Below the pieces are notes generated by a model. The model was not told the origin of the DNA and made no database searches. It saw only the letters and a program-made list of their open reading frames with translations. From contig NZ_KE384553.1 in NCBI RefSeq assembly GCF_000426685.1, forward strand, positions 328,906 to 392,905: a DNA stretch of 64,000 nucleotides. Reading direction: 5' to 3'. Source of the stretch: Solimonas flava DSM 18980 (GTDB taxonomy: Bacteria; Pseudomonadota; Gammaproteobacteria; Nevskiales; Nevskiaceae). Shown piece by piece: positions 8,444 to 26,486 of the stretch; positions within the stretch are counted from its first letter, which is position 1, and every line of letters begins with the position of its first letter. The position numbers and the translations under genes are program-made.

Positions 8444-8725
8444 CTATTTGACGTAGGCGACGAGGAAGTCGGCGAGCTGGCCGAGCGCGAGGTCGTCGAC
8501 GTAGCGACCGTCCTTCATCAGCAGCTTGTCGAACGGCGTCTTGAACAGGCCGAGGTCTTCCTCGATCGCGACGATGAACTGGATGATGTCGATCGACTCG
8601 AAGCCGAGGTCGCCGAGCAGCTTGGTGTCGCGCCCGTACTCGCCCTCGAACTCGTTATCCCAGTCCTGCGTGAAGTCTTGGAGAGTGGTGATCAGCTTGC
8701 TCAGGATCTCGTCGCTGGTGGCCAT
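8444..8725 (-). CDS. Stand-alone acyl carrier protein
   Basis: A 93-residue acidic helical protein with the phosphopantetheine attachment motif LGFESIDI, the serine being the expected 4'-phosphopantetheine site. It carries ESI where the usual carrier has DSL, as in some specialised polyketide or lipid carriers. Its start codon lies 71 bases inside the upstream acyltransferase gene in another frame, and only a poor Shine-Dalgarno is present, so translation is probably coupled. It may carry a starter unit or accept the finished chain from the two synthases upstream. Confidence 0.88.
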   Translation of the reverse strand: MATSDEILSKLITTLQDFTQDWDNEFEGEYGRDTKLLGDLGFESIDIIQFIVAIEEDLGLFKTPFDKLLMKDGRYVDDLALGQLADFLVAYVK

Positions 8726-9521: not shown

Positions 9522-9654
9522 GCGTCCCCGATCTGCTGTCGTCCGGCGGCGCCGCGGTCGTGGCCGCGGGCTCGCCCCTGAGGTTCGCGTCCACCGTCCG
9601 GATCGCGCGTTCCTCCGCGCGCGGTCCGGACGGACCCGTGTCATGCCGCCCGGC

Positions 9655-11274
9655 TCATTCCATGTAGCCGAGCATTTGCAGCTGCTCGATCATCTTCTGC
9701 TTTTCGCCGGCGTCGAGGTCGTCGGTCTTCTCGCCCTCGCGCTCCAGGCGCGTCTTGGCGCCCTTCTTGACCGGATGCTCGGCCCACCATTCGGGCGTGA
9801 AGAACGAGGCCGGCACTTCGCCTTCGAGATCGGACGGGATCGAGGTGCCGAGGCTGTAGAGCAGCGTCGAAGTGACGTCGACGATCTGGCGGCGCTCGAC
9901 CATGCCGGCCTTGGCGATGCCCTTGCCGTAGGCGACGAAGATGCCGTCCGGGTGGTGCGTGCCGGCGGCGTGCGGGCGCTGCACGACGACCGGTTTCAGG
10001 TTGCGGATCGACACGAAGCCGCTGTCGCGCAGTACCAGCGTCAGATCGCAGGCGCGCTCCATGTGCGGGCCCGGGAACCATTCGTCGCGCTTGAGCACGT
10101 CGACAACGACCGGCTCGCCGAATTCGTTGCGCAGCTTCTTGAGGTCGGCGATCAGCTTCTCGCGGAAGGCCTCGTACTGCTCGGGCGGCACGCCGTGGTC
10201 GCCCGGCTTCTCGGCGACGCGGATGTGGATGCCGTTCGACGAAGGTGTGCGGCAGTAGGCCGTGGTGCCGCTCCAGTCGAGATTCGCGAAGTTGGCGGCC
10301 TCGCGGCGCAGCGCCATCTCCGAGCCGTCGGACTGCGCCCACTTCAGATAGCCCAGCTCTTCGAGGTAGGCGTTGATGCGCAGCACTTCGGTCGAGGCCG
10401 TGAAGCCGTGGTCGGAGGCGAAGAAGACCTGCGCGTCCGGGCCGGCCAGCGTCACCAGCGTTTCGATGTAGCGGTCGAGGTTGCGGAAGTACTCCAGCAC
10501 GACCTCGCGCATCTGCTGGTCGTGCGCGCTCGGCTCGGCCTTCAGCAGCTCGGGGTCCAGCCACGGCCAGGCCTGGTGCTGGATCTTGTCGGTGCCGTCG
10601 AACATCACCGCCATCAGGTCCGGCGCGTCCTCGCGCAGCACGTACTCGGCGATGCGGAACCACTGCTCCTCGCGCGGCAGGTGGTAGCGCACCCACTTGT
10701 GCGTCTCCTCCGGCGACAGCGAGTCCATCGCCTGCTGCTCGTTCTCGAAGTCCCAGGCCAGCTCCTTCGGATCGAAGCCGGCGACGTCGTTCTTGAGGCG
10801 CTCGAACAGCTCGCGCGGATGCGTGTTGCGGCGCAGGTGCTTGGCCGACGTGAAGCCGGGGATCACGGCGCCGTTGATGTTCTTCGGCGGCGGTGCGGTC
10901 AGCGGAAAGTTCAGCGCCGCGCAGCTCATCTTCTTGCGGCTGACCATCGACCAGATCATTTCGCTGTCGACGTCGCGCGAGTCGTACAGCGTCCAGTAGA
11001 CCTCGCCGCCCTTGTCCTCGGCGCGGATGAAGTCGAACACGCCGTGCACGCCGGGACCCTTGCCGGTCATCAGCGAGGTCCAGGCCGGCGGCGTCAGCGG
11101 GTTCGGCGTCGAGCGCAGCTTGGCGCGCACGCCGTTGTCGAGGATCGTCTTCATGAACGGCATCGTCACGCCGACGCCGGGCAGATCCTTCGTCATCTCG
11201 TCGAGCACGGTGAAGGTGCAGCCGTCGAGGCCGATGAACAGGGTCTTGGTCTTGCGGGGAAGTGCGGCGTTCAT
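9655..11274 (-). CDS. Alkaline-phosphatase-superfamily (type I phosphodiesterase/NPP-like) protein
   Basis: The 539-residue product has the metal- and substrate-site pattern of nucleotide pyrophosphatase/phosphodiesterases. Visible are FIGLDG (Asp17), the nucleophile segment PPAWTSLMTG (Thr66), MFDGTDKIQH, ASDHGF and GTHHPDG. No signal peptide is seen, unlike most exported family members, so it may act in the cytoplasm. The family includes phosphodiesterases, phosphomutases and head-group transferases. Its position 43 bases after the KS-AT-PPTase gene suggests work on a phosphorylated lipid intermediate. GGAA precedes the ATG by five bases. Confidence 0.8.
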   Translation of the reverse strand: MNAALPRKTKTLFIGLDGCTFTVLDEMTKDLPGVGVTMPFMKTILDNGVRAKLRSTPNPLTPPAWTSLMTGKGPGVHGVFDFIRAEDKGGEVYWTLYDSRDVDSEMIWSMVSRKKMSCAALNFPLTAPPPKNINGAVIPGFTSAKHLRRNTHPRELFERLKNDVAGFDPKELAWDFENEQQAMDSLSPEETHKWVRYHLPREEQWFRIAEYVLREDAPDLMAVMFDGTDKIQHQAWPWLDPELLKAEPSAHDQQMREVVLEYFRNLDRYIETLVTLAGPDAQVFFASDHGFTASTEVLRINAYLEELGYLKWAQSDGSEMALRREAANFANLDWSGTTAYCRTPSSNGIHIRVAEKPGDHGVPPEQYEAFREKLIADLKKLRNEFGEPVVVDVLKRDEWFPGPHMERACDLTLVLRDSGFVSIRNLKPVVVQRPHAAGTHHPDGIFVAYGKGIAKAGMVERRQIVDVTSTLLYSLGTSIPSDLEGEVPASFFTPEWWAEHPVKKGAKTRLEREGEKTDDLDAGEKQKMIEQLQMLGYME

Positions 11275-11317
11275 GTCGGTTCCTGCAAACTGGATGCGGA
11301 CGGTTTGGTAATGAGGT

Positions 11318-14300
11318 TCAGGCGAGACAGAGCGCGAACACTTCGCGCCCCTCGATGAAGTGGATCATGACGGCGTAACGCTGGCCGCCGTGTTCGACGT
11401 CGGCGCCGGCGATCGTCGCATCGCCGGCGTAGCGAATCACGTGCCAGTCCTGCGGGCGGCCCTGCAGGCCGAGGCCGGATGCCTTGGCGGCGGCCTCCTT
11501 GGCGCTCCACAGGGCGGCGATCGCGCGTGCCCGCGCCGCGCCGGTCTGGGCGGCGATCAGGGTCTGCTCGGCAGCGTTCAGCGCGCCGCGCGCGACGGCT
11601 TCGAGGTCGATGCCGTCGAGGCGCTGGTAGTCGATGCCGAGGCGCGCGCCGGGCGGCGCGACGGCGGCGACGCCCCAGCGGCGGCTGTGGCTGATCGACA
11701 CCGCCGGCGTCGGGCCGGGGTGCGCGCCGATGCGCAGCTGCGGCGCGCCGGCCGCGTCGCTGGCGACGTGCACGTCGGCGGCGGCGAGCGCCAGCGGCAG
11801 CGCGGCCAGCCACTGGCGCGCGGCGTCCTTGGCGGCGACGCGGCCCATCAGCCATTCCTCGCGGCGCGGGCCGCTGGCCGGCAGCGCGTAGAAGGTCTTC
11901 AGCTCGGCGGCGTCGAGCACCATGTGCGCGAGCACGCGCTTCCAGATCGCGAAGCCCTGGTCGAGGAAGCCCTCGTCGAACGGTTCGAGGCGGCGGGCGA
12001 CGACGCCCGGCGGCAGCAGGCCTTCGAGCAGCGGCTCGGACAGCATGCGCGCCGGCGGATCGAGGCGGTAATGCAGGAAGCGCTGCGGCGTCGGGAACTT
12101 GCGGTCTTCCCAGTCGTCGGCGCGCATCAGCACGCGGCCCTGCGCGTCGGCGACGTCGAAGTCGGCGGCGACGATCGTCTCGCCGACCAGGCGCACGTCA
12201 CCGCGGCAGCGCACGCGCGTGCCGGCCGGCGGCGGCGGCGCGTACAGCGTGAAGCGGCCGAGGCGGAACGGGAAGCAGTTGTAGGCCCAGGCGAACTTCT
12301 CGGTGACCCAGTACGCGGCGAGCGCGCCGACCGCGTCGAGGATCGCGGCGTCGTACTCGAAGCGCGGCGCCGTCGTGAAGTCGAAGTAGTCGTGCGTGGC
12401 GATCGCCTCGACGTCGGCCTCGATCGAGCGCTCGCCCCAGCGCGCGATGTGCTTGACGCCCTGCAGGCGCGGGCCGTGGAACATGCCGCGGCTGTAGATC
12501 TCGCCGTCCGGATTGGCGCGCGCCGGGTGGGCGTCGGCCGAGGCCCAGGGCCGCATCGGCGGCGGCGGCGGATAGTGCGTGGCGAGCAGCACGGTGGTTT
12601 CGAACACCAGCGTGCCGCCCGGCGGCCCGCCGCTCTTGCCGAGGGCAAAGATGCGGCCGGCGACACGCTCGTGGCCGTCGCGCGCGGCTTCGCGTTCGAC
12701 GACCAGGCGCACGTCGAGCACCTCGCCGTCGAGGGCCAGCCAGCGGCTGCCGCGCGACTCCTCGAAGCCGGTGACGACCAGCTCGTCGCGGCCGAGCAGC
12801 TGGACCGCGGCTTCGGCCAGCATCTCCATGCTGAAGGTGAACGGCACCACGGTCAGCGGCAGCAGGCCGGCGTCGCGCCGGCTCGGCGTGCCGCCGATCG
12901 CGTGATCCTGCAGGAACAGATCGTGGTGATGGTCGAGCGTGCGTTCGCAGACCAGCTTCTGCGCGCTCTGCTCGACGATGCGGCCGAGCATCGGCAGGCG
13001 CCGCGGCGCGCCGGCCGGCGCTGCGCCGGCCGCCGCCGGCATGGCCGGCGGACCGGGCATCGTCAGCGGCGGCAGCGGCGCGGTGCCGGTCATCGCCGCC
13101 AGCACCCGCGACTGGCTGTCGAGAAAGTCCTGCATCAGCGAGAAATGCGTGCGCAGCAGCTCGCTGCGCGGATCGGCGGCGGCTTCGGCGACCGCGACGG
13201 CCGGCGCCGCTTCCGGGCGCTTCAGCGGCACGACTTTGGGATGCGCCGGATCGGCGGCGGCAGCCGGCGCGGCCGGCGTGGCCTGCAGCTGGCGCCGCAG
13301 CGGTGCCCAGTCGGCCGGCAGGCTCAGCTCCGGCATCTGCAGCGAGATCGTGATGCCGCGGCGGCCGGCGGCGCGCGGCGCCGCCATCAGGTCGAGCGTG
13401 TCGATGTCGCGATGCGCGTACAGCGCCGCCGGTTCGAAGGCGACGCCGGCGGCGTAGAGCTGCGCCAGCGCGTGATGCAGCTGCGTGACGCCGTGGCGGC
13501 GGCGGCTGTTGGTGGCGACCGCGACGACGTCGTCGTGCGCGCGCAGCGTGTCGGACGCGAACGAGGTCAGGTTGCCGCTCGGGCCGACCTCGACGAACAC
13601 GCGATAGCCGTCTTCGTAGAGCCGCTGCAGGGTCTCGGTGAAGCGCACCGGGTTTTCCCACTGCTGGGCGGCGAGTTCGCGGATCGCGTCGCCCTCGGCC
13701 GGGAAGCGGCCGACCGCGCGTGCGCTGTACAGCGTGCAGCGGCCGGGACCGAAGTCCAGCGACTTGAAGTACTCGCGCAGCGCGTCGGCGAACGGCTTGA
13801 ACAGCGGCGTGTGATAGGCGCGGCCGAACGGCAGCGCCACGCAGATGACGCCTTCGGCGGACAGCTTTTCGCGCAGCGCCTCGGCGGCGGCCGGCGGCCC
13901 GAACAGCACCAGTTGGTTCGGGCAGTTGTCCATCGCCACGATCATCTCGCCGGGGTCCTTCAGCAGCGCTTCGCGCAGCGGCGCCTTCAGCGCGCCGAGC
14001 GTCAGCAGCGTGCCCTCGGCGATGCGGCCTTCGGCTTCGAGACGGCGCGACAGATCGTTGAGCGTGCGAATCGATTCGGCGATTTCCTCGCGGCGCTCGG
14101 TGCGGCGCACGCGGCTGACGGTCAGCGCGGTGTTCTCGCCGGTGCTGTGGCCGAGCATCGCGTCCGGCGCGAAGTCCATGGCGTCGAGCAGGGCCTGCAG
14201 GCCGAGCGCGGCCGAGAACACGCTCTCGGCGGCAACGTCCATGCCGTAGAGGCGTTCTTCGAGCGCCTTGCGGGCTTCGTCGTCGAGGCCGGTCGGTGCC

Positions 14301-16171
14301 GGGAACACGATCGGCGCGCGCGCCGGCATGCCGCTGGCGAGCCCGGTCGACTCCATGAAGTCGAAGGCCTCGCGCACCTGCGGGAAGTGCAGCGCGAGGT
14401 CGGCCAGCATGTTCGGGTACTGCGCGCCTTCGCCGGGGTAGAGGAAGCAGAGCTTGCCCGGCGCGTCGCCGCGGCCGTAGAACACGCCGCCGCGCGTCTT
14501 GTACGGCCTGGCGTCGGCGCGCTGCAGTTTCTCCTGCGCCTGCTCGAGCTTCTTGACGAGATCGGCTTCGCTGTCGGCGACGATCGCCAGACGATGCGAG
14601 CCGCGCGCGAGGCTGGCGCTGGCGCGCGCGACTTCGGCGAGCGTCGCCGCCCGCGGCGCGCGCAGGTGCAGCAGCGTCTGCTCGATCTTGGTGAGCAGCG
14701 CCGGCACCGTGTCGCCGCCGAGCGTGACCAGCTCCGACGGCGTCGGCCGGTGCAGCACGCCGACCTGGGTGCGGCGGCGTTCGCGATGCTCTTCGAGGAT
14801 CACGTGCGCGTTGATGCCGCCGAAGCCGAAGGCGTTGGCGGCGGCGCGGCGTGGATGCGCGGCGCCATGCACCCAGGGCCGCGCCTCGTTGTTGATGTAG
14901 AACGGCGTCTCGTCGAGATGCAGATTCGGATCGGGCTCCGCGCAGATCATCGGCGGCAGCACCTTGTGGTGCAGCGCCAGCGCGGTCTTGATCAGCGAGG
15001 CGCTGCCGGATGCCGGCAGGCAGTGCGCGATCATCGACTTCACCGAGCCGACCGCGATCTGCGCGCCGCGGCCGCGCGCGCCATAGATATGGCGCATGGT
15101 CTCGATCTCGGTGCGGTCGCCGATCTCGGTGCCGGTGCCGTGCGCCTCGATCAGGTCGATCGTCAGCGGGTCGATGCCGGAGCTTTCGTAGGCGCGCTGC
15201 AGCGCCAGCACCTGGCCTTCGAGGCGCGGCGAGAGCAGGCCCTTGGCGCGGCCGTCGGACGAGGTGCCGACGCCCTTGATGACGGCGTAGATGCGGTCGC
15301 CCGCGGCCTCGGCGTCGGCGAGGCGCTTGAGCACCAGCATGCCGACGCCCTCGCCGAGCAGGATGCCGTTGGCGCCCTTCTGGAACGGCCGGATGTCGCC
15401 GTGCGACAGCGCCTGGATCTGGCAGAACTGGATGTACAGCTGCGGCGGCGTCTGCGAATGCACGCCGCCGGTGATCATCAGGTCGCAGCGGCCGGTGACC
15501 AGCTCGCGGACCGCGGCGTCGAGCGCGATCAGGCTCGACGAGCAGGCGGCGTCGACGATGAAGTTCGGCCCCATCATGTTGAGGCGGTTGGCGATCAGGC
15601 CGGCGATCACGTTCGGCGTCAGCACGCCGACCATGTCGGCGTTGTAGACCGGCAGCTGCCTGCGGAAGTGATCGTGCAGCTCGCGCAGCTCGGCTTCCGA
15701 CAGGTCCGGCCGCAGGCCGCGCGCGAGCGCGATCGCCTGGTCGGCGAACAGGCCGCGCGCCAGCACGCTGGCCATGCCGCGGTTGCCGTAGGTGCCGCGG
15801 CCGATGACGACGCCGGCGCGCTGCGGATCGAACGGCTTGCGCTGTGCGCCGTAGCCGGCGTCGGCGAGCGCGTCGCGCGCGTACTTGAGGGCGATCAGGT
15901 GATCGGGGTCGCCGCCCTCGGCGAGGCTCGGCAGCACGCCGAACTCGACCGGATCGACGACGATGCTGTCGTGCAGGAAGCCGCCGCGCGTCGTGTAGAT
16001 GCGGTCGTTGGTCTTCGCGTCGGGATCGAAGTACGGCCCGGTCCAGCGCGGCCCGGCGTCGCTGACGGCATCGACCTTGTCGAGGATGTTCTGCCAGTAG
16101 CGGCGGGCATCGGTGGCGCCGGCGTAGGCGCCGGCGAGTCCGACGATGGCGATGTCGACCGGCTGGCTCAC
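11318..16171 (-). CDS. Iterative synthase: KS-AT-DH-like with C-terminal phosphopantetheinyl transferase
   Basis: A 1617-residue multidomain protein. The ketosynthase spans about 1-460 with the triad Cys210 (AACSSSL), His344 (EAHGTGT) and His383 (IAHCLP). An acyltransferase covers about 570-900 (YPGEGAQ, active Ser676 in GHSTGE). A PKS dehydratase-like hot-dog region lies about 1070-1400, with DHAIGG as a possible catalytic histidine. A Sfp-type phosphopantetheinyl transferase occupies about 1440-1617 (Asp1514 in GIDYQ; WSAKEA from Trp1555). No ACP is present, so it must work with the five ACPs of the next protein or the free ACP. The GTG start has GGAG seven bases upstream. The layout recalls PfaC/PfaB-like or HglC/D partners of PUFA-type synthases. 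Confidence 0.88.
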   Translation of the reverse strand: MSQPVDIAIVGLAGAYAGATDARRYWQNILDKVDAVSDAGPRWTGPYFDPDAKTNDRIYTTRGGFLHDSIVVDPVEFGVLPSLAEGGDPDHLIALKYARDALADAGYGAQRKPFDPQRAGVVIGRGTYGNRGMASVLARGLFADQAIALARGLRPDLSEAELRELHDHFRRQLPVYNADMVGVLTPNVIAGLIANRLNMMGPNFIVDAACSSSLIALDAAVRELVTGRCDLMITGGVHSQTPPQLYIQFCQIQALSHGDIRPFQKGANGILLGEGVGMLVLKRLADAEAAGDRIYAVIKGVGTSSDGRAKGLLSPRLEGQVLALQRAYESSGIDPLTIDLIEAHGTGTEIGDRTEIETMRHIYGARGRGAQIAVGSVKSMIAHCLPASGSASLIKTALALHHKVLPPMICAEPDPNLHLDETPFYINNEARPWVHGAAHPRRAAANAFGFGGINAHVILEEHRERRRTQVGVLHRPTPSELVTLGGDTVPALLTKIEQTLLHLRAPRAATLAEVARASASLARGSHRLAIVADSEADLVKKLEQAQEKLQRADARPYKTRGGVFYGRGDAPGKLCFLYPGEGAQYPNMLADLALHFPQVREAFDFMESTGLASGMPARAPIVFPAPTGLDDEARKALEERLYGMDVAAESVFSAALGLQALLDAMDFAPDAMLGHSTGENTALTVSRVRRTERREEIAESIRTLNDLSRRLEAEGRIAEGTLLTLGALKAPLREALLKDPGEMIVAMDNCPNQLVLFGPPAAAEALREKLSAEGVICVALPFGRAYHTPLFKPFADALREYFKSLDFGPGRCTLYSARAVGRFPAEGDAIRELAAQQWENPVRFTETLQRLYEDGYRVFVEVGPSGNLTSFASDTLRAHDDVVAVATNSRRRHGVTQLHHALAQLYAAGVAFEPAALYAHRDIDTLDLMAAPRAAGRRGITISLQMPELSLPADWAPLRRQLQATPAAPAAAADPAHPKVVPLKRPEAAPAVAVAEAAADPRSELLRTHFSLMQDFLDSQSRVLAAMTGTAPLPPLTMPGPPAMPAAAGAAPAGAPRRLPMLGRIVEQSAQKLVCERTLDHHHDLFLQDHAIGGTPSRRDAGLLPLTVVPFTFSMEMLAEAAVQLLGRDELVVTGFEESRGSRWLALDGEVLDVRLVVEREAARDGHERVAGRIFALGKSGGPPGGTLVFETTVLLATHYPPPPPMRPWASADAHPARANPDGEIYSRGMFHGPRLQGVKHIARWGERSIEADVEAIATHDYFDFTTAPRFEYDAAILDAVGALAAYWVTEKFAWAYNCFPFRLGRFTLYAPPPPAGTRVRCRGDVRLVGETIVAADFDVADAQGRVLMRADDWEDRKFPTPQRFLHYRLDPPARMLSEPLLEGLLPPGVVARRLEPFDEGFLDQGFAIWKRVLAHMVLDAAELKTFYALPASGPRREEWLMGRVAAKDAARQWLAALPLALAAADVHVASDAAGAPQLRIGAHPGPTPAVSISHSRRWGVAAVAPPGARLGIDYQRLDGIDLEAVARGALNAAEQTLIAAQTGAARARAIAALWSAKEAAAKASGLGLQGRPQDWHVIRYAGDATIAGADVEHGGQRYAVMIHFIEGREVFALCLA

Positions 16172-16244: not shown

Positions 16245-19200
16245 TCAAGCGATCAGCCCCGAGACGAAGTCGCGATGGTTCGGCGCGAGCTTGTTGAGGC
16301 CGGCGCTCATCGTGCTGGTGCCGTCGACGATGGCGATGCGCACGCGGCCCTGCGCGTCGATGATGTCGGCGTCGTAGGCGATCGCGTGCTCGTGCGGCGC
16401 TGGCTTGAGGCGCATCACCAGCTTCAGCGGGCCGGACAGCGGTTCGCGGCCGTAGCGCGACACGCTGCCGAAGCCGGCCGGCAGCGCGCCCTTGTCCTGC
16501 TGCACGCGCGCCCAGACGAAGGCCAGCTGCGGCGGCACGTCCATCAGGCCCATGTCGAACACCCAGCGGCCACCGGCGGCGCCGACGAAGCCCTCGATCG
16601 GCGAGGGTTTGACGGCGACGGCGATGCCGCCGCCGTGCAGCTTGTCGATGCGCTCGATCAGGCGGAAGCGCGGACCGTGGAACAGATGCTCGCGATAGGC
16701 GTCGGCGGCCTCGATGGCGATGCCTTCGCCCGGCAGCACCGGTGCCTGCGCCAGCGTCGCTTCCGGCAGCTCCTGCAGCAGCACCGCGGTGGCGCGGTAG
16801 AACGGCAGCTTGCGCTGCGGGTCGATGATCTCGACCGTCACCGTCTGGCCGTGCAGATCGGAGTGCGAGGACGCCCGCGCGCGCAGCTGCACGGCGCGCG
16901 AACCGCCTTCGAGCACGATGCCGTTCATCTGCCGCACGTCGCGCATGCCGACCACGTGCCAGCCCGGCCACGCGGCGCCGACGAACTGCGCCATGTACTC
17001 CAGTGCGCCGGCTGCCGGCACCACGGCCTTGCCGTCCATGCAGTGGTCGATCAGGTACGGATCGCTGGCCAGCGTGAAGACGTGGTCGAGCGTCATGTTG
17101 CCGCCGGGGCCCATGCGCAGCGCGTCGCGGATCAGCGGATAGCCGCTGCCGCCGCTGCCGCTGCCGGCCGCCGGCGGCGCCGTGTCGGCGCTGGCCGGCG
17201 TCGGCCCGAACAGGCGCCACGGTCCGTAGCCGGCGACGATCTCGACGTCCTGGCGCGTGCCGTAGGCGAGCTCGTCGGCGAAGAAGCGGCGGCCGGCGGC
17301 GACCGGGATCGGTTCCATGCCCTTGTCGCGGAACGCGCGCTTGACGCCGTCGCTGGCCATGCCGGCATCCCACGGTCCCCAGTTGACGGCGAACACGCGC
17401 GTCTGCGGCCAGGCGCGCGACAGCGACCAGGCGATGCGGTTCAGCGCCTCGTTGGCGGCAGCGTAGTCGCTCTGGCCGCGGTTGCCGTAGCGGCCGGCGA
17501 CCGAGGTGAAGAACGACAGCCACTTCAGCGAGTCGGCCTTGAGCTTGTGCTGCAGCACGAACACCGGATCGAGCTTGGTGCCGAACACGCGCGCGAACGA
17601 TTCCGGCGTCTTGTCCTTGAGCAGCTTGTCCTCGATCACGCCGGCGCCGTGGATCACCGCGTCGATGCGGCCATGGCGCGCGTAGACCTCGTCGATCACC
17701 GCGCCGAATGCCTCGGCTTGGCGCACGTCGCAGGCGAGGTATTCGACCTCGGCGCCGCGGGCGCGCAGGCGGGCGAGGTTGGCGCGGATCTCGCGCTCGA
17801 CGAGCGTGGCGGCAACGGCGCGGTCGATCTCGACCGGCTTCGGCTTCTCGCCGCGCGCGATCGCCGCTTCGAGCAGCGCCTTGCGCAGCGCCGCGGCGTC
17901 GGCCAGCGCCGCGGTCGCGGGGCTTTCGGCAGCCGGCTCGGCGGTGCGGCCGAGCAGCACGTAGCGCAGGCCCGGCACGGCCAGCTCTTCGAGAATCTCG
18001 GCGGTGATGCCGCGCGCGCCGCCGGTGACGAGCAGCACCCAGCCGGCTTCCGGCTTCAGGTTCGGTGCGAAGGCGTGCTCGGTCGCCGCCTGTTCGACGG
18101 TGACGCTGCCGTAGCGCTCGCCGCCGATCCAGCCGGCTTCCGGCTGCGGGTCGTTGGCGAGCAGCTCGGCGACCAGCTCGGTGGCGATTTCGTCGTCGCT
18201 CTGGCCGTCGAAATCGACGCTGCGGATCTGCGCGTCCGGATACTCGTGGCGCAGGCAGTTGGTCAGGCCGGTCACGCCGCCGGCGATCGGCGCGCCGCTG
18301 CCGAAGGCGTCGCGGCCCAGCGTGCCGCCGAGGCGCGTCGCGGCGATCAGGCGGATCTGCGCCAGCTGCGGTTCCAGCGCCTTGGCGGCGAGGAACAGGC
18401 TGCCGACGCAGCGCGCGCCGAGCCGCTGCCAGTCGGCGGCGCTGGCGGCTTCCTCGCCGACCAGACCGTGCAGATGCAGCACGGCGCGCGCCGGCCCGTG
18501 TTCGGCCTGCGCGCCGGCGAGCGCCGCGGCGAGGCTGTCGTCGAAGGCGTCGATGAAGACCGGCGTCAGGCCGCGCGCGGTGAGGATCGTCTGCAGCGCG
18601 GTGCGCACGCCTTCGGGGCCGCCCAGCACCACGGTCAGACCCTGCAGCTCGGCGTTGCCGGCCGCCAGGGGCATGGCCTGCGACTTGATCAGATAGCGCG
18701 GGATCGTCGTCGCCGGCGCTTCGACCGCGGCGTCGTCCGCCGGCACGGCGGCCAGCGGCGCTGCGGCACCAGCGCCGGCCGACAGCTCGGCGTAGGCGGC
18801 GACGATCGCGCTCAGGCTCTTGGCCTTGGTGAAGCGCTCCATCTCCGTCTGCATGCGCGCCGCTGCCTCGGCCGTCAGCAGTTTCTGGAACGCGCCGAGG
18901 ATTTCGACGCGCTTGATCGAGTCGATGCCGAGGTCGGCTTCGAGGTCGGCGTCGAAGGCAAGCATGTCCTGCGGATAGCCGGTGCGTTCGGCGACGATCG
19001 CGAGCAGCTGCGCGGAGACGTCGAGGCTGACCGCCGCGGCCGTGGCGACCGCGACCGGCGCCGTCGCCGCCAGCGTCGCGGCCGCCGCTGCCGGCGCGCC
19101 GCTGCCGGCGATCGTGGCGAATTCGTCGAGGATCGCACGCAGGCTCTTGGCCTTGGTGAAGCGTTCCATGCGGCCCTGCATCGTCTCGGCGAGCGCGGCC

Positions 19201-22200
19201 GGCAGCAGCTTCTGCAGCGCACCGAGGATTTCGACGCGCTTGATCGAATCGATGCCGAGATCGGCTTCGAGGTCGGCGTCGAAGGCGAGCATGTCCTGCG
19301 GATAGCCGGTGCGCTCGGCGACGATTTCGAGCAGCGTGCGTTCGGCGTCGAAGCCGGCCGCCGGTGCGCTCACCGCCACGGCGACCGTCGTCGCGACGGC
19401 CGTCGCGACCGGGGCCGCGGCAAGTCCGCCGAGCGTGCGCGCTTCGGCGAGGATGGCGTTCAGCGACTTGGCCTTGGTGAAGCGCTCCATGCCGCCCTGC
19501 ATCTGCGCGGCGGTTTCGGCCGGCAGCGCTTTCTGCAGTGCGCCGAGGATTTCGACGCGCTTGATCGAGTCGATGCCGAGGTCGGCTTCGAGATCGGCGT
19601 CGAGGGCGAGCATGTCCTGCGGATAGCCGGTGCGTTCGGCGACGATGCCGAGCAGCAGCGCCTGCAGATCGAGCGCCGGCGCGGCGACGGCGATGCTCGC
19701 AACGCTGAGCGCGAGTGCCGGCGCGGCCGCTGCGACGCCGGCCGGCGCGAAGGCGCGCGCCTCGGCGAGGATGGCGTTCAGCGACTTGGCCTTGGTGAAG
19801 CGTTCCATCGCCGCCTGCATGCCGCTGCCGGCGTCGCCGGGCAGCGCCTTCTGCAGTGCGCCGAGGATTTCGACGCGCTTGATCGAGTCGATGCCGAGGT
19901 CGGCTTCGAGATCGGCGTCGAGCGCGAGCATGTCCTGCGGATAGCCGGTGCGTTCGGCGACGATGCCGAGCAGCAGCGCCTGCAGATCGAGCGCCGGCGC
20001 GCTCGGCGTCACGGCTGCGAGCGGCGCGGCGACGGCGGCGGGGCTCACCGCGCCCGCCGCCGGCAGGAAGGGCTGGGCCTCGGCGAGGATGGCGTTCAGC
20101 GACTTGGCCTTGGTGAAGCGCTCCATCGCCGCCTGCATCGCCGTGCCGGCGTCGCCGGGCAGCGCCTTTTGCAGCGCGCCGAGGATTTCGACGCGCTTGA
20201 TCGAGTCGATGCCGAGATCGGCTTCGAGATCGGCATCGAGCGCGAGCATGTCGTGCGGATAACCGGTGCGCTCGGCGACGATGTCGAGCAGCAGCTTCTT
20301 CGCATCGAAGGCGGGGGCCGCGACCGGCGCGCGGGTGACGACGGCGGGCGCGGCCGCAACCGGCGCGCTCGGCGGCGGCGCGAAGCTCGGCTGCGTCGGC
20401 GCGACGACGGGCGCCGCGACGGCGGGCGCCGGCGCCGCGACCGGCAACGCCGGCATCTGCGGCAGCGACGGCATCGCCGCCGGTGCGCCGCCGAGGAACT
20501 GCTGCATCACGCGTTCCTGCAGCGCGAGGAACTGGCGCATCGTCTGCTGGTAGGCCTGCATCGCCTCGTTGCCGAGCGCCGGCGGCAGCGCCGCCAGCCC
20601 CGGTGCCGCGAGCGGTGTGGCCGGCAGCGCGACGGGCGCGGCCGGCGGCGTGCGCGCCACGGCGAGCCGGGTGTCGCGCTCGGCCTGGGCGCGGGCGATC
20701 GCCGCGTCGGCGGCGGCCTTGTCGAGCTGCGGCTTGGCGCCGGTGCGGTACTGCGGATCGTCGAGCGGGCGCGCACAGCCGCCGCTGACCATCCAGATGT
20801 GCTTCGGCAGCGCCTCCGGCCGGGCGCGCGCCGCGAACTGCGCCGGCTCGACCGGCGCGATGTCGCGGCCTTCGAACAGGCGCGTCAGCGTCAGCGCGAC
20901 GCCGGCGGCCGTCAGCTCGGCGAGGCCGAGCAGCAGGCCGCGCAGGCCGCCGCCGCTGCCGTCGAGCGAGACCGCGACGTGCGGCTTGCCGGCCAGCGTC
21001 TGCCGGGCCATGTTGCTGCAAATGCCCTTCGGGCCGAGTTCGACGAACACGCGGCTGCCGGCGGCGTACATCGCCTCGATCTCGGCGACGAACTCGACGC
21101 TGCTGAGCAGGTGCGCATCGAGCTGGCGCTGCATGTCCTGCGGCTTGGCCGGGTAGGGCTGCGCCGTGCTGTTCGAATACACCGCGAACGCCGGCTTGGC
21201 GAAGGCGGTGGCCTGGATCGCCTGCGACAGCGGCGGCTGTGCGCCGGCGACCAGCTCGGTATGGAACGCGCCGGACACCGCCAGCAGCGTCGCCCGCATG
21301 CCGGCGGCGTCGCAGGCCTTGGCGGCCGCGGCGACGGCGTCCTTGGGACCGGAGATCACGGTCTGCTCGGGCGCGTTGTGGTTGGCGACCTTGACGCCTT
21401 CATAGGGCGCGATCATCGCGGCGATCGCTTCGCGCTTGCCCTGCACCGCGGCCATGCCGCCGGGCACCGAGGACTGCGCGGCGCTGGCCATCGCCGCACC
21501 GCGAATCGCCGACAGTTTCAGGAAGTCCGTCGCGCCGAGCACGCCGGCCGCCATCAGTGCGGCGTATTCGCCGTAGCTGTGGCCGGCCGCGGCCTGTGCC
21601 GACAGGCCCAGGCGCGTCGCCAGCCGGTGATAGCCGAGCGCAAGCGCGCCGATCGCCGGCTGCGCGATGCGCGTGTCGGTCAGCTCGGCGGTCTGGCGCT
21701 GCTCGGTTTCGGAATCGAACGCGGCCGGCGGCAGGATCCGGCGCGACAGCAGGCCCGGGATTTCGTCGCGCAGCGTGCGGTCGGCAAGCTCCAGCGCCTC
21801 GCGCACCTCGTCGAAGTAGAGCGCCGCTTCGCGCCCCATGTTGACGTACTGCGCGCCCTGGCCCGGGAACAGCAGCGCGACGGCCGGCGCCTCGGCCGGC
21901 GTCGCGCGGTTGAGGCGGATGTGGGCCGGCAGCGGCTTGCTTTGCGTCAGATGCGCGAGCACCGCTTCGAAGTCGGCGGCGAGGCCCTGCAGGCTGCCGG
22001 CGACGATCGCCAGCGTCAGTGCCTGGCCGCGGCGGGCGTCGGCCTCGCGCGCCAGCGCCAGCGCCAGCTCGGCGAGCGTCAGCTTGCCTCCCTGCGTGCT
22101 CAGCGCCGGCAGCAGCTTGTCGATCGCCTGCTTGAGTGCCGCGTCGTCGGCGGCGCGTAGCACGCAGAGTTCCGACGACCAGCGGTTCGCGCCGCTGGCG

Positions 22201-25200
22201 GCGCTGCTGCCGCCGTTCGCCGGACGGTATTCCTCCAGCACGGCGTGGAAGTTGGTGCCGCCGAAGCCGAAGGCCGAGACGCCGCCGCGGCGCGGATGAT
22301 CCGGATGCGCGATCCACGGCCGCGCGTCCTTGAGCAGGTACACCGCCGAGTTCGGGTCGGCGATCGTGTCGATCGGCTTGTCGACGCCGTAGTGCGCCGG
22401 CAGCACGCGGTGGTACAGCGACAGCGCGACCTTGATCAGGCCGGACACGCCGGCGCTGGCCTTGGTGTGGCCGATCAGCGTCTTCACCGAGCCGAGCGCG
22501 ACGCTCTTGGCCGGCGCGTGTTCGTCGGCGAGCGCGCGCGTGATGGTCTGCGCTTCGGCGCGGTCGCCGACCGCGGTGCCGGTGCCGTGCGCTTCGGCCA
22601 GCGCCAGCGTCGCCGGCGAGAAGCCGGCCTTGGCGTAGGCGCGGCGCAGGGCGCGGATCTGGCCCTCGGGGCGCGGCGCGGTGAGGCCGAGCGCCTTGCC
22701 GTCGGACGAGCCGGACGCCGCCTTGATGACGGCGTAAATGCGGTCGCCGTCGCGTTCGGCGTCGGCGAGCCGTTTCATGACGATGACGGCGAGACCTTCG
22801 CTGATGGTGATGCCGTCGGCGCCCTGGTCGAAGGTCTTCGGCTGGCCGGTCGGCGACAGCGCCTGCGTCTTCGAGAAGCACAGGAAGCCGAACGGCGACT
22901 GCACGGTGTCGACGCCGCCGGCCAGCACCATCGCGCTGCGGCCCGATTCGAGTTCGTTGACGCCGATGCTGATCGCCGCGAGCGAGGACGCGCAGGCGGC
23001 GTCGACGGTGAAGTTGATGCCGCCGAAATCCATGCGATTGGCGACGCGGCCGGCGGCGACGTTGAGCAGCGAGCCGGAGAACGACTCCTCCGTCCATTCC
23101 GGCAGACGTTCCCAGACCGACGGGTCCGGGTTTTCGACGAAGCGCGGCAGCTCGGCGCGCACGCCGTACTGCAGGCCGAGGTCGCCGAGACCGCCGCCGG
23201 CGCCGAGCACGATCGAGGTGTTGGCGCGGTCGTAGCCGCCGTCGCCATAGCCGGCGTCGGCGACCGCGCGGCGCGCGACCTCCAGCGTCAGCAGCTGCAT
23301 GGGATCGATCGCCTTCATCGACTTCGGCGGGATGCCGAAGCGCATCGGGTCGAAGGCGACCTCGTCGAGGAAGCCGCCCCAGCGCGAGTAGACCTTGTCG
23401 CGCGCCTTGCGGTCGCCGTCGAAATACAGCGTCCAGTCCCAGCGCGTCTTCGGCACTTCGCCGAGCGCGACATCCTTGTGCAGCACGTGATACCAGAACT
23501 CGTCGGCGCTGCCGGCCTTCGGCAGCAGCGTGCCGATGCCGATGATGGCGACGTCGGACGGCTGCGCCTTGACCGCGCGCTCGACGCGCACCGCCGACAG
23601 CGTTTCGAGCAGGCGCTGGCCGGCGTTGCAGACGTCGTCGTGCAGCGCTTCGACCTTGACCGGCTCGCGACGCAGGGTCGCGACCTGGCCGATCATGTAC
23701 ATGCCGTCGCTGAGCTGGCGGTCGGCGCCGATCTCGACGACCTTGCCGCTGTCGTCGCGGTTGACGCCCTTGGAGGCGATGCGCAGGCGCCCGAGGTTCA
23801 GCTCTTCGAGGATGTCGCGGATTTCCTCGGCGCTCCGGCCTTCGCGGATCAGCTGGCGGCGCTGTTCGAAGAAGTCATGCGCGAACTGCGTGTCCGCGCA
23901 GCGCGTCGAGTGGCCGGGGCCGGTTTCGAGGTTCTTGGTGCGTTCGCAGAGCAGGGCCTGCTGCTGGAAGCCCGGCACCACCGCGCCGCTCGTCACGATC
24001 TCCTCGCTGAACAGGTAGGCGGTGCCCATCAGCGCGCCGACCTTCATGCCGCGCGCCGCGAGCGGCGCCGTCATCGCGGCGACCATCGCGCCGGAGCGCG
24101 CATCGTGAATGCCGCCGGCGAACAGCAGATGCACGTCCTTGGCCTCGGCCGGCGGCACGTGCTCGAGCAGCACGTCGATCATTTCCTCCCACAGCGTGAA
24201 GCTGGCGAGCGGGCCGATGTGGCCGCCGCATTCGCGGCCCTCGAACACGAAGCGGCGCGCGCCCTGTTCGAGGTACATCTTCAGCAGCGCCGGCGCCGGC
24301 GCGTGGATGTAGGTCTTGATGCCGCGCTTCTCGAACTCTGCGGCCTGGTCCGGGCGGCCGCCGGCGATCAGTGCGAACGGTGGCTTGCACTTCCAGATCG
24401 CTTCGCACTGCTCTTCGCGCAATGCATGCGGGATGAAGCCGAGCATGCCGACGCCCCACGGCCGGTCGCCGATCGTCGCCGCCGTCTGTTCGAGCATCTC
24501 GCGCACCTGCTCGCCGCGCATCAGGGCGAGCGCGAGGAAGGGCAGCGCGCCGCCCTTGGCCACTTCGACGGCGAAGGCCGGCGAGTCGGAGACGCGCGTC
24601 ATCGGCCCCTGCGCGAGCGGGAAGCGCGTGCCGTGCGAATCGGCCAGCGCGCCGTGCTCGGCGAGGAAGCGCAGCTCGGCGGCCTGATCGATCTGCTTCA
24701 GGCTTTCGCGGCGCACGGCCTGCACGAGCTTGGCGACGCTGCCGTAGCGGCGGCGGAACGTGCCGGCGAGGCCGATGCCCTGGCCGAGCGGCAGCAATGT
24801 CGAGCCGTCGGCGGACCAGGCGACGCGCGCCGCGGTCTGCTCGCGCCAGGCGTCGAGGGCCAGCAGGCCACCTTCGGACTGGCGATTGTCTTCCTCGGCC
24901 GCTTTCATCACCGCCGAGGCGGGGCGCGCATAGACGCGGCAGCTGGTGTCGAGCAATTCGCCGAGCAGCTTGGTTTCGGCGCCGTTGAGACGGCCGAGCT
25001 CGTTCTGCAGCGACATCGGCAGCGGCGATTCGGCGAGCAGCAGCAGCTGGTCGTCGTAGATCACGCCGGCGGCCCCGGCGGCGCGGCAGGCGGCGGCGGA
25101 ATGCACGCCGACGCCGCCCTGCACGACCAGCGGCAGCTCCGTCCGTCCGGCCAGCTTCTGCAGCAGGATGTAGCTGGTGTATTCGCCGACCCAGCCGCCC

Positions 25201-25613
25201 GATTCGTGGCCGCGCGCGACGACGGCATCGCAGCCTTCGATCGCTGCGAGCTGCGCCGGATCGGTGATCTCGGCCCAGGCGCGGTCGCCGGCGCGCAGGC
25301 CGGCGTCCTTGCGCAGTTTCTTGTAGCTGTCGGTTCCGGCCAGCACCACCGTCAGCGCGCGGCCTTCCGCCTGCGCGAGCAGCTTGCGGGCGAGCTTGGC
25401 GCTGTCGGGCGTGACGCGCAGACCGATGCGCGCATCGGACGACACGCACAGCTGCACGAAGTTGCGCTGGATCAGCTCGCCGTCTCGGGCGAACTCGAGA
25501 TCGAGCAGGCCGATGCCGCCGGCGCGTGCGACGGCGGCGGCGATGCCGGCGTGCGGCAAGTCGGCGGCCTGCAGGCCGATGACATCGAAGGTCTTGGCAG
25601 GGGCAATGCTCAC
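16245..25613 (-). CDS. PfaA-like megasynthase: two flavin ER-like domains, KS, AT, five ACPs, KR, DH
   Basis: A 3122-residue protein. Residues 1-645 contain two nitronate-monooxygenase/PfaD-like halves (GHESGGWVG near 135; GRECGGHIG near 459), probably FMN-dependent enoyl reduction. The KS (about 687-1140) has Cys874, His1009 and His1049. The AT (about 1245-1560) has Ser1346 in GHSYGE. Five tandem ACPs have LGIDSIK attachment serines at 1804, 1910, 2016, 2123 and 2232. The KR has TGGARGI at 2530 and Tyr2717. The C-terminal dehydratase has the HxxxGxxxxP motif at His2857. PUFA and heterocyst-glycolipid synthases share the KS-AT-multi-ACP-KR core and work iteratively. The start is GTG, with AGAGG five bases upstream. 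The sulfatase-like gene lies 57 bases before it. Confidence 0.92.
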   Translation of the reverse strand: MSIAPAKTFDVIGLQAADLPHAGIAAAVARAGGIGLLDLEFARDGELIQRNFVQLCVSSDARIGLRVTPDSAKLARKLLAQAEGRALTVVLAGTDSYKKLRKDAGLRAGDRAWAEITDPAQLAAIEGCDAVVARGHESGGWVGEYTSYILLQKLAGRTELPLVVQGGVGVHSAAACRAAGAAGVIYDDQLLLLAESPLPMSLQNELGRLNGAETKLLGELLDTSCRVYARPASAVMKAAEEDNRQSEGGLLALDAWREQTAARVAWSADGSTLLPLGQGIGLAGTFRRRYGSVAKLVQAVRRESLKQIDQAAELRFLAEHGALADSHGTRFPLAQGPMTRVSDSPAFAVEVAKGGALPFLALALMRGEQVREMLEQTAATIGDRPWGVGMLGFIPHALREEQCEAIWKCKPPFALIAGGRPDQAAEFEKRGIKTYIHAPAPALLKMYLEQGARRFVFEGRECGGHIGPLASFTLWEEMIDVLLEHVPPAEAKDVHLLFAGGIHDARSGAMVAAMTAPLAARGMKVGALMGTAYLFSEEIVTSGAVVPGFQQQALLCERTKNLETGPGHSTRCADTQFAHDFFEQRRQLIREGRSAEEIRDILEELNLGRLRIASKGVNRDDSGKVVEIGADRQLSDGMYMIGQVATLRREPVKVEALHDDVCNAGQRLLETLSAVRVERAVKAQPSDVAIIGIGTLLPKAGSADEFWYHVLHKDVALGEVPKTRWDWTLYFDGDRKARDKVYSRWGGFLDEVAFDPMRFGIPPKSMKAIDPMQLLTLEVARRAVADAGYGDGGYDRANTSIVLGAGGGLGDLGLQYGVRAELPRFVENPDPSVWERLPEWTEESFSGSLLNVAAGRVANRMDFGGINFTVDAACASSLAAISIGVNELESGRSAMVLAGGVDTVQSPFGFLCFSKTQALSPTGQPKTFDQGADGITISEGLAVIVMKRLADAERDGDRIYAVIKAASGSSDGKALGLTAPRPEGQIRALRRAYAKAGFSPATLALAEAHGTGTAVGDRAEAQTITRALADEHAPAKSVALGSVKTLIGHTKASAGVSGLIKVALSLYHRVLPAHYGVDKPIDTIADPNSAVYLLKDARPWIAHPDHPRRGGVSAFGFGGTNFHAVLEEYRPANGGSSAASGANRWSSELCVLRAADDAALKQAIDKLLPALSTQGGKLTLAELALALAREADARRGQALTLAIVAGSLQGLAADFEAVLAHLTQSKPLPAHIRLNRATPAEAPAVALLFPGQGAQYVNMGREAALYFDEVREALELADRTLRDEIPGLLSRRILPPAAFDSETEQRQTAELTDTRIAQPAIGALALGYHRLATRLGLSAQAAAGHSYGEYAALMAAGVLGATDFLKLSAIRGAAMASAAQSSVPGGMAAVQGKREAIAAMIAPYEGVKVANHNAPEQTVISGPKDAVAAAAKACDAAGMRATLLAVSGAFHTELVAGAQPPLSQAIQATAFAKPAFAVYSNSTAQPYPAKPQDMQRQLDAHLLSSVEFVAEIEAMYAAGSRVFVELGPKGICSNMARQTLAGKPHVAVSLDGSGGGLRGLLLGLAELTAAGVALTLTRLFEGRDIAPVEPAQFAARARPEALPKHIWMVSGGCARPLDDPQYRTGAKPQLDKAAADAAIARAQAERDTRLAVARTPPAAPVALPATPLAAPGLAALPPALGNEAMQAYQQTMRQFLALQERVMQQFLGGAPAAMPSLPQMPALPVAAPAPAVAAPVVAPTQPSFAPPPSAPVAAAPAVVTRAPVAAPAFDAKKLLLDIVAERTGYPHDMLALDADLEADLGIDSIKRVEILGALQKALPGDAGTAMQAAMERFTKAKSLNAILAEAQPFLPAAGAVSPAAVAAPLAAVTPSAPALDLQALLLGIVAERTGYPQDMLALDADLEADLGIDSIKRVEILGALQKALPGDAGSGMQAAMERFTKAKSLNAILAEARAFAPAGVAAAAPALALSVASIAVAAPALDLQALLLGIVAERTGYPQDMLALDADLEADLGIDSIKRVEILGALQKALPAETAAQMQGGMERFTKAKSLNAILAEARTLGGLAAAPVATAVATTVAVAVSAPAAGFDAERTLLEIVAERTGYPQDMLAFDADLEADLGIDSIKRVEILGALQKLLPAALAETMQGRMERFTKAKSLRAILDEFATIAGSGAPAAAAATLAATAPVAVATAAAVSLDVSAQLLAIVAERTGYPQDMLAFDADLEADLGIDSIKRVEILGAFQKLLTAEAAARMQTEMERFTKAKSLSAIVAAYAELSAGAGAAAPLAAVPADDAAVEAPATTIPRYLIKSQAMPLAAGNAELQGLTVVLGGPEGVRTALQTILTARGLTPVFIDAFDDSLAAALAGAQAEHGPARAVLHLHGLVGEEAASAADWQRLGARCVGSLFLAAKALEPQLAQIRLIAATRLGGTLGRDAFGSGAPIAGGVTGLTNCLRHEYPDAQIRSVDFDGQSDDEIATELVAELLANDPQPEAGWIGGERYGSVTVEQAATEHAFAPNLKPEAGWVLLVTGGARGITAEILEELAVPGLRYVLLGRTAEPAAESPATAALADAAALRKALLEAAIARGEKPKPVEIDRAVAATLVEREIRANLARLRARGAEVEYLACDVRQAEAFGAVIDEVYARHGRIDAVIHGAGVIEDKLLKDKTPESFARVFGTKLDPVFVLQHKLKADSLKWLSFFTSVAGRYGNRGQSDYAAANEALNRIAWSLSRAWPQTRVFAVNWGPWDAGMASDGVKRAFRDKGMEPIPVAAGRRFFADELAYGTRQDVEIVAGYGPWRLFGPTPASADTAPPAAGSGSGGSGYPLIRDALRMGPGGNMTLDHVFTLASDPYLIDHCMDGKAVVPAAGALEYMAQFVGAAWPGWHVVGMRDVRQMNGIVLEGGSRAVQLRARASSHSDLHGQTVTVEIIDPQRKLPFYRATAVLLQELPEATLAQAPVLPGEGIAIEAADAYREHLFHGPRFRLIERIDKLHGGGIAVAVKPSPIEGFVGAAGGRWVFDMGLMDVPPQLAFVWARVQQDKGALPAGFGSVSRYGREPLSGPLKLVMRLKPAPHEHAIAYDADIIDAQGRVRIAIVDGTSTMSAGLNKLAPNHRDFVSGLIA
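18790..20315 (-). repeat. Five tandem ACP-coding repeats, about 320 bp each
   Basis: Five consecutive copies of a carrier-protein module encode VAERTGYPQDML-like and LEADLGIDSIK segments separated by Ala/Pro-rich linkers. Attachment serines are spaced 106, 106, 107 and 109 residues apart. Copies two and three are the most alike. The high DNA identity makes copy number prone to change by recombination. Confidence 0.92.
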
Positions 25614-25670
25614 GGGACCTCTCCAGCGTTCAGTCAGTTGCTTCGCGAAAAAATGCGCCGGGGCCAGCCG

Positions 25671-26486
25671 TCAGCGCTTCTTGCCTTCGAGGAACGGCAC
25701 TTCGAGCACCTTCTCGTGCACGATCGGCCCGTGGCCGAAGTAGCCGTTCTCGCCGAAGCACTCGCCATGGTCGGCGGTGATGATGAAATGCGTGTTGACG
25801 GGTGCCTTGGCGATCAGCGCGTCGAGCACGCCGTCGACGTATTCGACGGTCTTGATCTGCTGCTGGTGCAGGTCGCGCATCTGCTTCTCGTCGAAGAACT
25901 GGTCTTCAGTGTCCTGGCCCAGCGTGTCATCCATGCGCTTGAACACGCCGTGCACCCCGGAGATGTGCGGCAGCGACTTCGGGTCGAGCATGTACGGATA
26001 GTGCGTTTCGCCGAGATTCAGGAAGTGGAAGCTCGGTTCGTCCTCGTCGAACTCGATCTCCTCGACCATGCCGGCGAAATCGTTGTGGTTCGACATCAGC
26101 TTGTAGTCGTCGAAGTGACGGTTCAGGTGGCTGGCCGGGTTCAGCACCGGCATCGACACGCGACCCACCGTGCGGTAGCCCTGGTCCTGCAGCACCTTCG
26201 GCAGCGACAGGTTGGGGATGAAGCTCTTGAACGACAGGCCGTCGATGCCGAGGCGATCAACCCACTTCACGAAGTCCTTCTTGTAGACCTCGGAGGCAAA
26301 AACATGCTGCGGGCTGTCGTGCGGGACCATGCCCATCAGATAGGTGTAGTGCGAAGGGCTGGTCCAGGACGCGTACGCGAAGCGGCGTTCGCCGGCGCCG
26401 ATACGGTCCATGTTCGGGGTCTTGGCGGCGCTGTAGCTGTCGAAGCGGCAGCTGTCCATCACGATGAAGACGAGGTTGTGGCTCAT
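25671..26486 (-). CDS. Short sulfatase-fold protein without a formylglycine motif
   Basis: A 271-residue member of the sulfatase/alkaline phosphatase fold. Asp11 (IVMDSCRFD) and TADHGECFG near the C-terminus match metal-binding segments, and GHGPIVHEKVLEVPF matches the following strand. In place of the sulfatase C/S-x-P-x-R motif it has T-S-P-S-H (residues 42-46). Formylglycine formation is therefore unlikely, and a threonine nucleophile as in phosphatases or phosphotransferases is more probable. It ends soon after the DHG region, roughly 150-200 residues shorter than common sulfatases. It is the first gene of the minus-strand lipid cluster and so marks the promoter-proximal end. No clear Shine-Dalgarno is visible. 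Confidence 0.78.
   Translation of the reverse strand: MSHNLVFIVMDSCRFDSYSAAKTPNMDRIGAGERRFAYASWTSPSHYTYLMGMVPHDSPQHVFASEVYKKDFVKWVDRLGIDGLSFKSFIPNLSLPKVLQDQGYRTVGRVSMPVLNPASHLNRHFDDYKLMSNHNDFAGMVEEIEFDEDEPSFHFLNLGETHYPYMLDPKSLPHISGVHGVFKRMDDTLGQDTEDQFFDEKQMRDLHQQQIKTVEYVDGVLDALIAKAPVNTHFIITADHGECFGENGYFGHGPIVHEKVLEVPFLEGKKR

Follow-up and report, generated by a model that had tools for sequence, protein, structure and literature searches.

A short sulfatase-fold protein with threonine at the formylglycine position that co-occurs with a PfaD-fused polyketide synthase in Solimonas flava and other bacteria

Closest described systems and the locus in Solimonas flava

Type I sulfatases carry the motif C/S-x-P-x-R, in which formylglycine arises only from cysteine or serine, and a second acidic residue (DD) follows the aspartate of their first strand. 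In a Mn-dependent arylsulfatase the first-strand pair is Asp20-Gln21; the C61A variant is dead, the C61S variant retains 20–35% of activity, attributed by the authors to serine oxidation, and mutants of Q21, R65 and other pocket residues are dramatically reduced or worse (PMC12421950, in the part available). For MCR-1, the available part of PMC5031297 describes a conserved zinc with phospho-Thr285, Glu246, Asp465 and His466, and with His395 and His478 nearby. STM4013, which gives its name to a family of short proteins with the same type of fold (STM4013/SEN3800, NF038075), has one mention, a table row, in the accessible text of PMC3844500. Among secondary lipid synthases, Type O clusters were reported from Dinoroseobacter, Parvularcula and Gloeobacter (Shulse and Allen 2011, PMC3098273, part of the text). 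The words sulfatase, phosphatase, phosphodiesterase, glycosyl and sulfotransferase have no mention in the accessible text of that paper, and sulfatase, phosphatase and sulfotransferase have none in PMC13291983. The gene or cluster described here is not named in the titles or abstract openings that searches of the open-licence PMC literature brought up, and the types of Shulse and Allen may include related clusters.

The window, i.e. the whole stretch of 64,000 nucleotides that was analysed, comes from the 4.46 Mb genome of Solimonas flava DSM 18980 (Table 1). The gene for the 271-aa protein heads a run of genes on the minus strand that continues through both polyketide synthase (PKS) genes to the CoA-transferase frame, and PKS 1 starts 57 bases past its stop codon. 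The sulfotransferase gene and a gene designated c3_500 lie beyond this run on the plus strand. A scan of 25500–27123 gave no promoter-like sites and one terminator-like site against 1.4 expected, and so provided no operon evidence; a tRNA scan of the window detected none. The closest named locus among the best 80 of 138 candidates was that of Solimonas variicoloris, with 99% over the 271-aa protein.

Parts of the cluster recur together elsewhere. One genome (G311) holds the sulfotransferase, a relative of the 271-aa protein, the CoA-transferase, c3_500, the hydrolase, a 539-aa-type protein and both PKS in one region of <30 kb, and a 10-kb contig of another (G326) holds the sulfotransferase, c3_500, a 539-aa-type protein, the hydrolase and a 271-aa relative. 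The 539-aa protein has L-T-P-P-A-W-T at its likely nucleophile, as judged by eye, and relatives in G311 and G326 and at loci L054, L058 and L084. Between its gene and PKS 2, a 194-aa ORF (11271–11855, minus strand) is Arg/Ala-rich, has no family match and probably represents a spurious frame that overlaps PKS 2. The c3_500 protein (also at L081:12125–13609) has ~500 aa, no Pfam match and a predicted beta-propeller fold (pLDDT 87); the missing Pfam match and the propeller prediction apply to the Roseovarius copy. Similarity searches with c3_500 matched many unrelated propeller-type proteins and did not reveal its chemistry.

Table 1. Features of the window and of the 271-aa protein, with positions counted from the first letter of the window
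Feature	Position	Strand	Basis
Short alkaline-phosphatase-superfamily protein, 271 aa, ATG start	25671..26486	(-)	ORF, Pfam, fold model
D11 codon; proposed metal ligand, at the MCR-1 Glu246 position	26454..26456	(-)	Invariant in 80/80; alignment ends and PMC5031297 (part)
T42-S-P-S-H46, at the sulfatase C/S-x-P-x-R position; T42 proposed nucleophile	26349..26363	(-)	Conservation
D239-H240-G241; proposed metal ligands, H252 further on	25764..25772	(-)	Conservation, EptA alignment
PKS 1: PfaD-like part (~aa 1-650, named from sequence, no Pfam match), KS, AT, five PP-binding stretches, KR, DH	16245..25613	(-)	Pfam
PKS 2: KS, AT, DH, 4'-phosphopantetheinyl transferase	11318..16171	(-)	Pfam
Second alkaline-phosphatase-superfamily protein, 539 aa (PF01663), phosphodiesterase-type	9655..11274	(-)	Pfam
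Hexapeptide-repeat protein (PF00132, 27.6 bits vs 27); true start probably further in	8655..9644	(-)	
Alpha/beta hydrolase	7561..8433	(-)	
Glycosyltransferase group 1	6384..7469	(-)	
Open frame containing two stretches of CoA-transferase family III; its beginning overlaps the glycosyltransferase and is probably non-coding	4114..7359	(-)	
Sulfotransferase family (PF13469, 42.2 bits vs 27, obtained with the longer frame 204-1844); start chosen by eye	921..1844	(+)	
C-terminal part of c3_500; 48% identity to the Roseovarius copy over 31-894	1..924	(+)	

Family, fold and candidate active site

The top Pfam family for the 271-aa protein was Sulfatase (PF00884, 42.9 bits, cut-off 25), followed by Phosphodiest (PF01663), barely above its cut-off (24.4 vs 23), and by PF01676 below its cut-off (22.1 vs 24.3). 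NF038075 was the closest NCBIfam model, with 77 bits, or 66.7 bits in a six-frame search, against a cut-off of 250. Profile score and fold both place the protein in the alkaline phosphatase superfamily and in PF00884.

The family sample consisted of the best 80 of 138 confirmed candidates, found with the scan seeds HNDFAGM and ETHYPYM, so that conservation in those columns is biased. By label, 37 loci form a Nevskiales block (L010–L046, four labelled otherwise or more broadly), and the remainder comprise 12 loci from Alphaproteobacteria, nine from Cyanobacteria, eight from Pseudomonas, three each from Burkholderiales and Competibacteraceae, and eight from other Proteobacteria. The Verrucomicrobia label of L027 is probably wrong, as its genome (G459) shares PKS coordinates with G397, which is placed in the family of the window genome. 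The contig NZ_AKGD01000001.1 of Hydrocarboniphaga effusa contains the locus twice (L024 and L026) with the same ORF pattern over the stretch read, reflecting either a duplication or an assembly error.

Conservation was concentrated in a set of charged and polar residues. D11, C13, R14, D16, T42, P44, H46, N157, G159, E160, T161, H162, D239, H240, G241, G251, H252, G253 and H257 were identical in 80/80 relatives, S45 and K259 were each present in 79/80, and S12 was found in 79/80 with Arg in the other one. Cys or Ser at position 42 was found in 0/80. Three distant relatives, from a Mesorhizobium plasmid (46–48% identity), the Agrobacterium Ti plasmid (32–35%) and the STM4013 family (26%), all retain D11, R14, D16, T42, H46, H162, D239, H240, E246, H252 and H257. 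In a second cyanobacterial subfamily (54–55% identity, two copies read), the one copy that was read for these features shows T-A-P-A-H at the motif and ends in the same way.

The predicted structure of the 271-aa protein had a pLDDT of 83.5 and a pTM of 0.86, with residues 180–187 below 50. The best VIA-align matches were EptC (4tn0, Z 17.2, rmsd 3.4, 218 aligned) and EptA (5fgn, Z 16.6, rmsd 3.3, 218 aligned), in alignments spanning the whole length of the model (1–271), with the sulfatase 6hhm at Z 16.5; the 50 matches listed range from Z 14.3 to 17.2, and gaps of less than 1 are to be read as ties. Sulfatases head the Foldseek list by E-value. LtaS and OpgB have no entry among the structural matches listed, which says nothing against kinship. 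Searches of the PDB by phmmer and by profile gave weak local matches that do not fix residue correspondence. Comparison by hhalign with the EptA of the same genome aligned DHGE...HG, equally spaced in both proteins (42 columns, probability 88.9); in this comparison and in that with the 539-aa neighbour the DHG region alone was aligned.

The residue set resembles the active site of the EptA/MCR type. Several MCR-1 alignments pair residues 236–500 with model residues 1–271, which would place D11 at Glu246 if gapless, and D239-H240 and H252 are spaced as Asp465-His466 and His478 of MCR-1. T42 would correspond to Thr285 by order and by fold, and H162 to His395 by order, rather than by residue-level overlay. 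The residues of that site (Thr, an acidic residue, Asp, His and two more His) appear to be present as a set with DHG...H spaced alike, again as read along the chain. The first core strand of the model starts at residue 5, leaving little room for a signal peptide, and the model has neither the N-terminal membrane domain of EptA/MCR nor the membrane anchor of LtaS/OpgB. As no signal or membrane segment fits, the protein is probably cytosolic.

A preliminary description of this DNA had reported a sulfatase-fold protein, unlikely to be a sulfatase, with T-S-P-S-H in place of the formylglycine motif and a short C-terminus. The fold is borne out by the PF00884 score and by the structural matches to sulfatases, and the motif, with both Cys/Ser and Arg gone, was present as described (A-S-W-T42-S-P-S-H46) and is family-wide. 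The protein ends 30 residues past G241 with EVPFLEGKKR; relatives, in all 80 cases 269–285 aa long as extended by script, end ~30–45 residues past DHG, and the C-terminal subdomain that type I sulfatases have after the DHG/DN strand was looked for and is absent from all 80. Since all 80 relatives keep them, T-x-P-S-H and the short C-terminus are family features. A frameshift or truncation of a longer sulfatase at this gene was considered and ruled out, because 80/80 relatives end near the same place; on sequence comparison the short C-terminus is a normal feature of the family, common to the STM4013-family member L114, with no loss peculiar to the S. flava gene. The doubt about sulfatase activity is also upheld: no formylglycine Cys/Ser, no second acidic residue or Gln (D11-S12 instead) and no C-terminal subdomain was found, and the positions taken to correspond to C61, Q21 and R65 of the arylsulfatase are Thr, Ser and His. 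Proteins of this type are annotated as sulfatase-like.

Association with polyketide synthase and sulfation genes

Presence at the 80 loci was counted by tblastn, as greedy ORF choice found the family in 72/80 loci, with other frames displacing it in eight. PKS thresholds were E ≤ 1e-60 in the class, order and cyanobacterial samples and E ≤ 1e-40 in a retest of 21 genomes. Among 369 genomes of the class, a 271-aa relative was detected in four (S. flava included), the PfaD part of PKS 1 in eight and c3_500 in five; all four genomes with the relative have both PKS and c3_500, and the fifth with c3_500 (G025) has the PKS and lacks the 271-aa gene. Among 85 genomes of the order, the relative was detected in 46 (S. 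flava included) and the PKS in 54, and 46/46 with the relative have the PKS, with matches of only 43–47% in G397. The hypergeometric values (9e-8 for the class, 4e-16 for the order) are too small, since the genomes are kin and not independent.

In 237 cyanobacterial genomes a relative was found in 18. The 10 strong matches (E < 1e-140) all fall among the 12 genomes with the PKS, and the two genes are >360 kb apart on one contig in five of these, on different contigs in three and within 25 kb in two. None of the eight genomes with a weaker relative (E near 1e-107) is among the 12 PKS genomes (E ≤ 1e-60). These eight (8/237) carry the second cyanobacterial subfamily, and both of its loci that were read (L130:7965–8861 and L131:8080–8976) contain no sulfotransferase. 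Each of these two copies comes after a short hydrophobic ORF.

Across the family sample, 79/80 loci lie in a genome with a PKS match (59 at the locus and 20 of 21 retested). The 61 PKS-positive loci include two edge matches (L058 and L081), which were retested by whole genome; in 20 of the 21 genomes whose locus had no clear PKS, one was found elsewhere or just past the flank, in one case as a 129-aa piece. The PKS is the neighbour of the 271-aa gene in 36/37 loci of the Nevskiales block. Distances between 271-aa proteins correlate with those between PKS parts (Spearman 0.85 over 58 loci and 0.63 over the 22 outside the Nevskiales block), in a comparison made with no control gene. PKS genomes without the 271-aa gene numbered 14 (4/8 in the class, 8/54 in the order and 2/12 in cyanobacteria); one of them, G025, also has c3_500, so that some form of the pathway, whether the same or a variant, occurs where the 271-aa enzyme is missing. 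These 14 genomes, the eight cyanobacteria without PKS and the copies in Mesorhizobium and Agrobacterium oppose an exclusive tie to the PKS pathway. On the Mesorhizobium huakuii plasmid (L126) the relative follows a BtrH_N-like gene whose Pfam match is below cut-off, and the surrounding cluster also contains radical SAM, aminotransferase, transketolase, TldD-like and P450 genes; on the Agrobacterium fabrum Ti plasmid (L127) it precedes a GTP cyclohydrolase II-like gene, with an MFS transporter further on.

Sulfation genes were the other recurrent neighbours. A sulfotransferase match was found in 28/43 loci outside the Nevskiales block and 0/37 within it, where the downstream flank is mostly PKS sequence in 36 of 37 loci; the window shows that a sulfotransferase can be further off. 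In 22/80 loci, going by coordinates, a sulfotransferase match on the same strand starts no more than ~220 bases downstream. Eight Pseudomonas loci have a CysNC-type gene (one copy identified by Pfam) on the same strand ~3 kb downstream, and a Rubrivivax MAG has one on the opposite strand ~6 kb upstream. A CysD-like gene, recognized by eye without a family search, stands beside the CysNC-type gene in 6/9 of these loci, including 5/8 from Pseudomonas. Another full APS-kinase match was detected elsewhere in 8/8 Pseudomonas genomes and only a marginal one in the Rubrivivax MAG. This suggests that the extra APS-kinase gene at the Pseudomonas loci provides extra PAPS, and the product of the PKS pathway may perhaps be sulfated. 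In one cyanobacterium (G492) the PKS lies megabases away and the 271-aa relative is near sulfotransferase, TPR and HlyD-like genes.

Proposed function and comparison with known systems

The reading we favour, at a probability of roughly 0.6, is that the 271-aa protein is a cytosolic threonine phospho-hydrolase or phospho-transferase serving the PKS lipid pathway, as judged from its sequence and predicted fold. It would be a catalytically competent member of the alkaline phosphatase superfamily with a threonine nucleophile and one core metal site, acting on phosphate rather than sulfate. T42 would attack a phosphate ester or diester and carry the phosphate as a phospho-threonine intermediate next to a metal coordinated by D11, D239 and H240, with substrate bound by H162, H252 and H46, and the phosphoryl group would then pass to water or to an acceptor. 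The main clade would be specialized in modifying or releasing what a PUFA-synthase-like (PfaD-fused) PKS makes, in pathways that often also have a PAPS-type sulfotransferase. The protein thus probably serves a sulfated-lipid pathway without itself being a sulfatase, and the product of the cluster is probably an undescribed, perhaps sulfated, long-chain lipid, made in Solimonas with relatives in other bacteria. The preliminary description had suggested a phospho- or phosphoglycerol-type transferase or an inactive partner. A phospho-type transferase is within the class best supported by the MCR/EptC-like residues and the fold, although sulfatase folds score equally and the membrane anchor of phosphoethanolamine transferases, LtaS and OpgB is absent.

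The frequent proximity of sulfation genes admits other substrates. A phosphatase for PAP (3'-phosphoadenosine 5'-phosphate) or a related nucleotide, keeping a PAPS-dependent step going, would suit the loci with a sulfotransferase directly downstream and the Pseudomonas loci with CysNC-type and CysD-like genes. However, the PKS and not the sulfotransferase is the neighbour throughout nearly all of the Nevskiales block, relatives exist with no sulfotransferase match nearby, and CysQ, the dedicated PAP phosphatase, has another fold, which also counts against this rather unlikely reading. The strong co-occurrence with a PKS bearing five carrier domains, and the position of the Mesorhizobium relative after a BtrH_N-like gene, would agree with an enzyme whose target is the synthase's carrier arm and which might, for instance, cut a phosphopantetheine, acyl-phosphopantetheine or CoA phosphodiester in chain release. 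We consider this improbable, given that relatives also occur in genomes without the PKS and that we know of no enzyme of this fold acting on carrier arms.

The arylsulfatase variants (PMC12421950, available part), Ser12 after the first aspartate and the threonine at the formylglycine position in 80/80 all argue against a formylglycine-free sulfatase or a sulfo-group transferase acting on the sulfated lipid itself, and little weight is given to this reading despite the fold and the sulfotransferase and APS-kinase genes nearby. The presence of a longer second protein of the superfamily in the cluster and the departure of the motif from sulfatases could point to a protein that has lost catalysis and plays a structural part alongside the PKS or the 539-aa protein. 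This is very improbable, and the earlier idea of an inactive partner is not sustained, because 80/80 relatives and the three distant ones all keep the putative catalytic residues.

For the favoured phospho-enzyme, sequence suggests phosphate chemistry and neighbourhood suggests sulfation, which together define a concrete step in an orphan lipid pathway common to Solimonas, Pseudomonas, Rhodobacteraceae and Cyanobacteria. As one type of PKS accompanies the gene even where the two are distant, a substrate search is realistic. A tentative extension, which we regard as possible and no better than that, is a class of undescribed sulfated long-chain lipids across Proteobacteria and Cyanobacteria, built by a PfaD-fused PKS and a sulfotransferase, in Pseudomonas with a dedicated PAPS supply; a threonine-using, formylglycine-free enzyme of sulfatase fold could then take a key step, such as the transfer or removal of a phosphate by which the lipid is made ready for sulfation or release. 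If the enzyme is ordinary, the finding is an uncharacterized subfamily.

Compared with described systems, the 271-aa protein has a known superfamily and fold, and its score does not reach the threshold for the only short family that has a name. STM4013/SEN3800 resembles it in being short (a 261-position model) and of the same fold, and the one member read (L114) has T-F-S-A-H, with Thr and His at the motif places, DHG, a later His and the same end; identity, however, is 26% and the model score falls far below its cut-off. Type I sulfatases (PF00884, S1) share fold and Pfam family but differ in having C/S-x-P-x-R, the second acidic residue and a longer C-terminus. The catalytic domain of EptA, EptC and MCR-1, which was the top fold match (tied), appears to share a threonine nucleophile, a metal site of acidic residue, Asp and His, and two more His. 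Unlike these enzymes, the 271-aa protein lacks a membrane domain, begins with the first core strand and stops before the end of the catalytic domain; relative to MCR-1 it has Asp for Glu, and H46 is additional. The cluster resembles secondary lipid synthase clusters, possibly Type O, in its pfaA/pfaD-like domains, as compared by text (PMC3098273, part of the text), and the hosts of the 271-aa family, which are partly Rhodobacteraceae, Parvularculaceae and Cyanobacteria, recall the Type O hosts given there.
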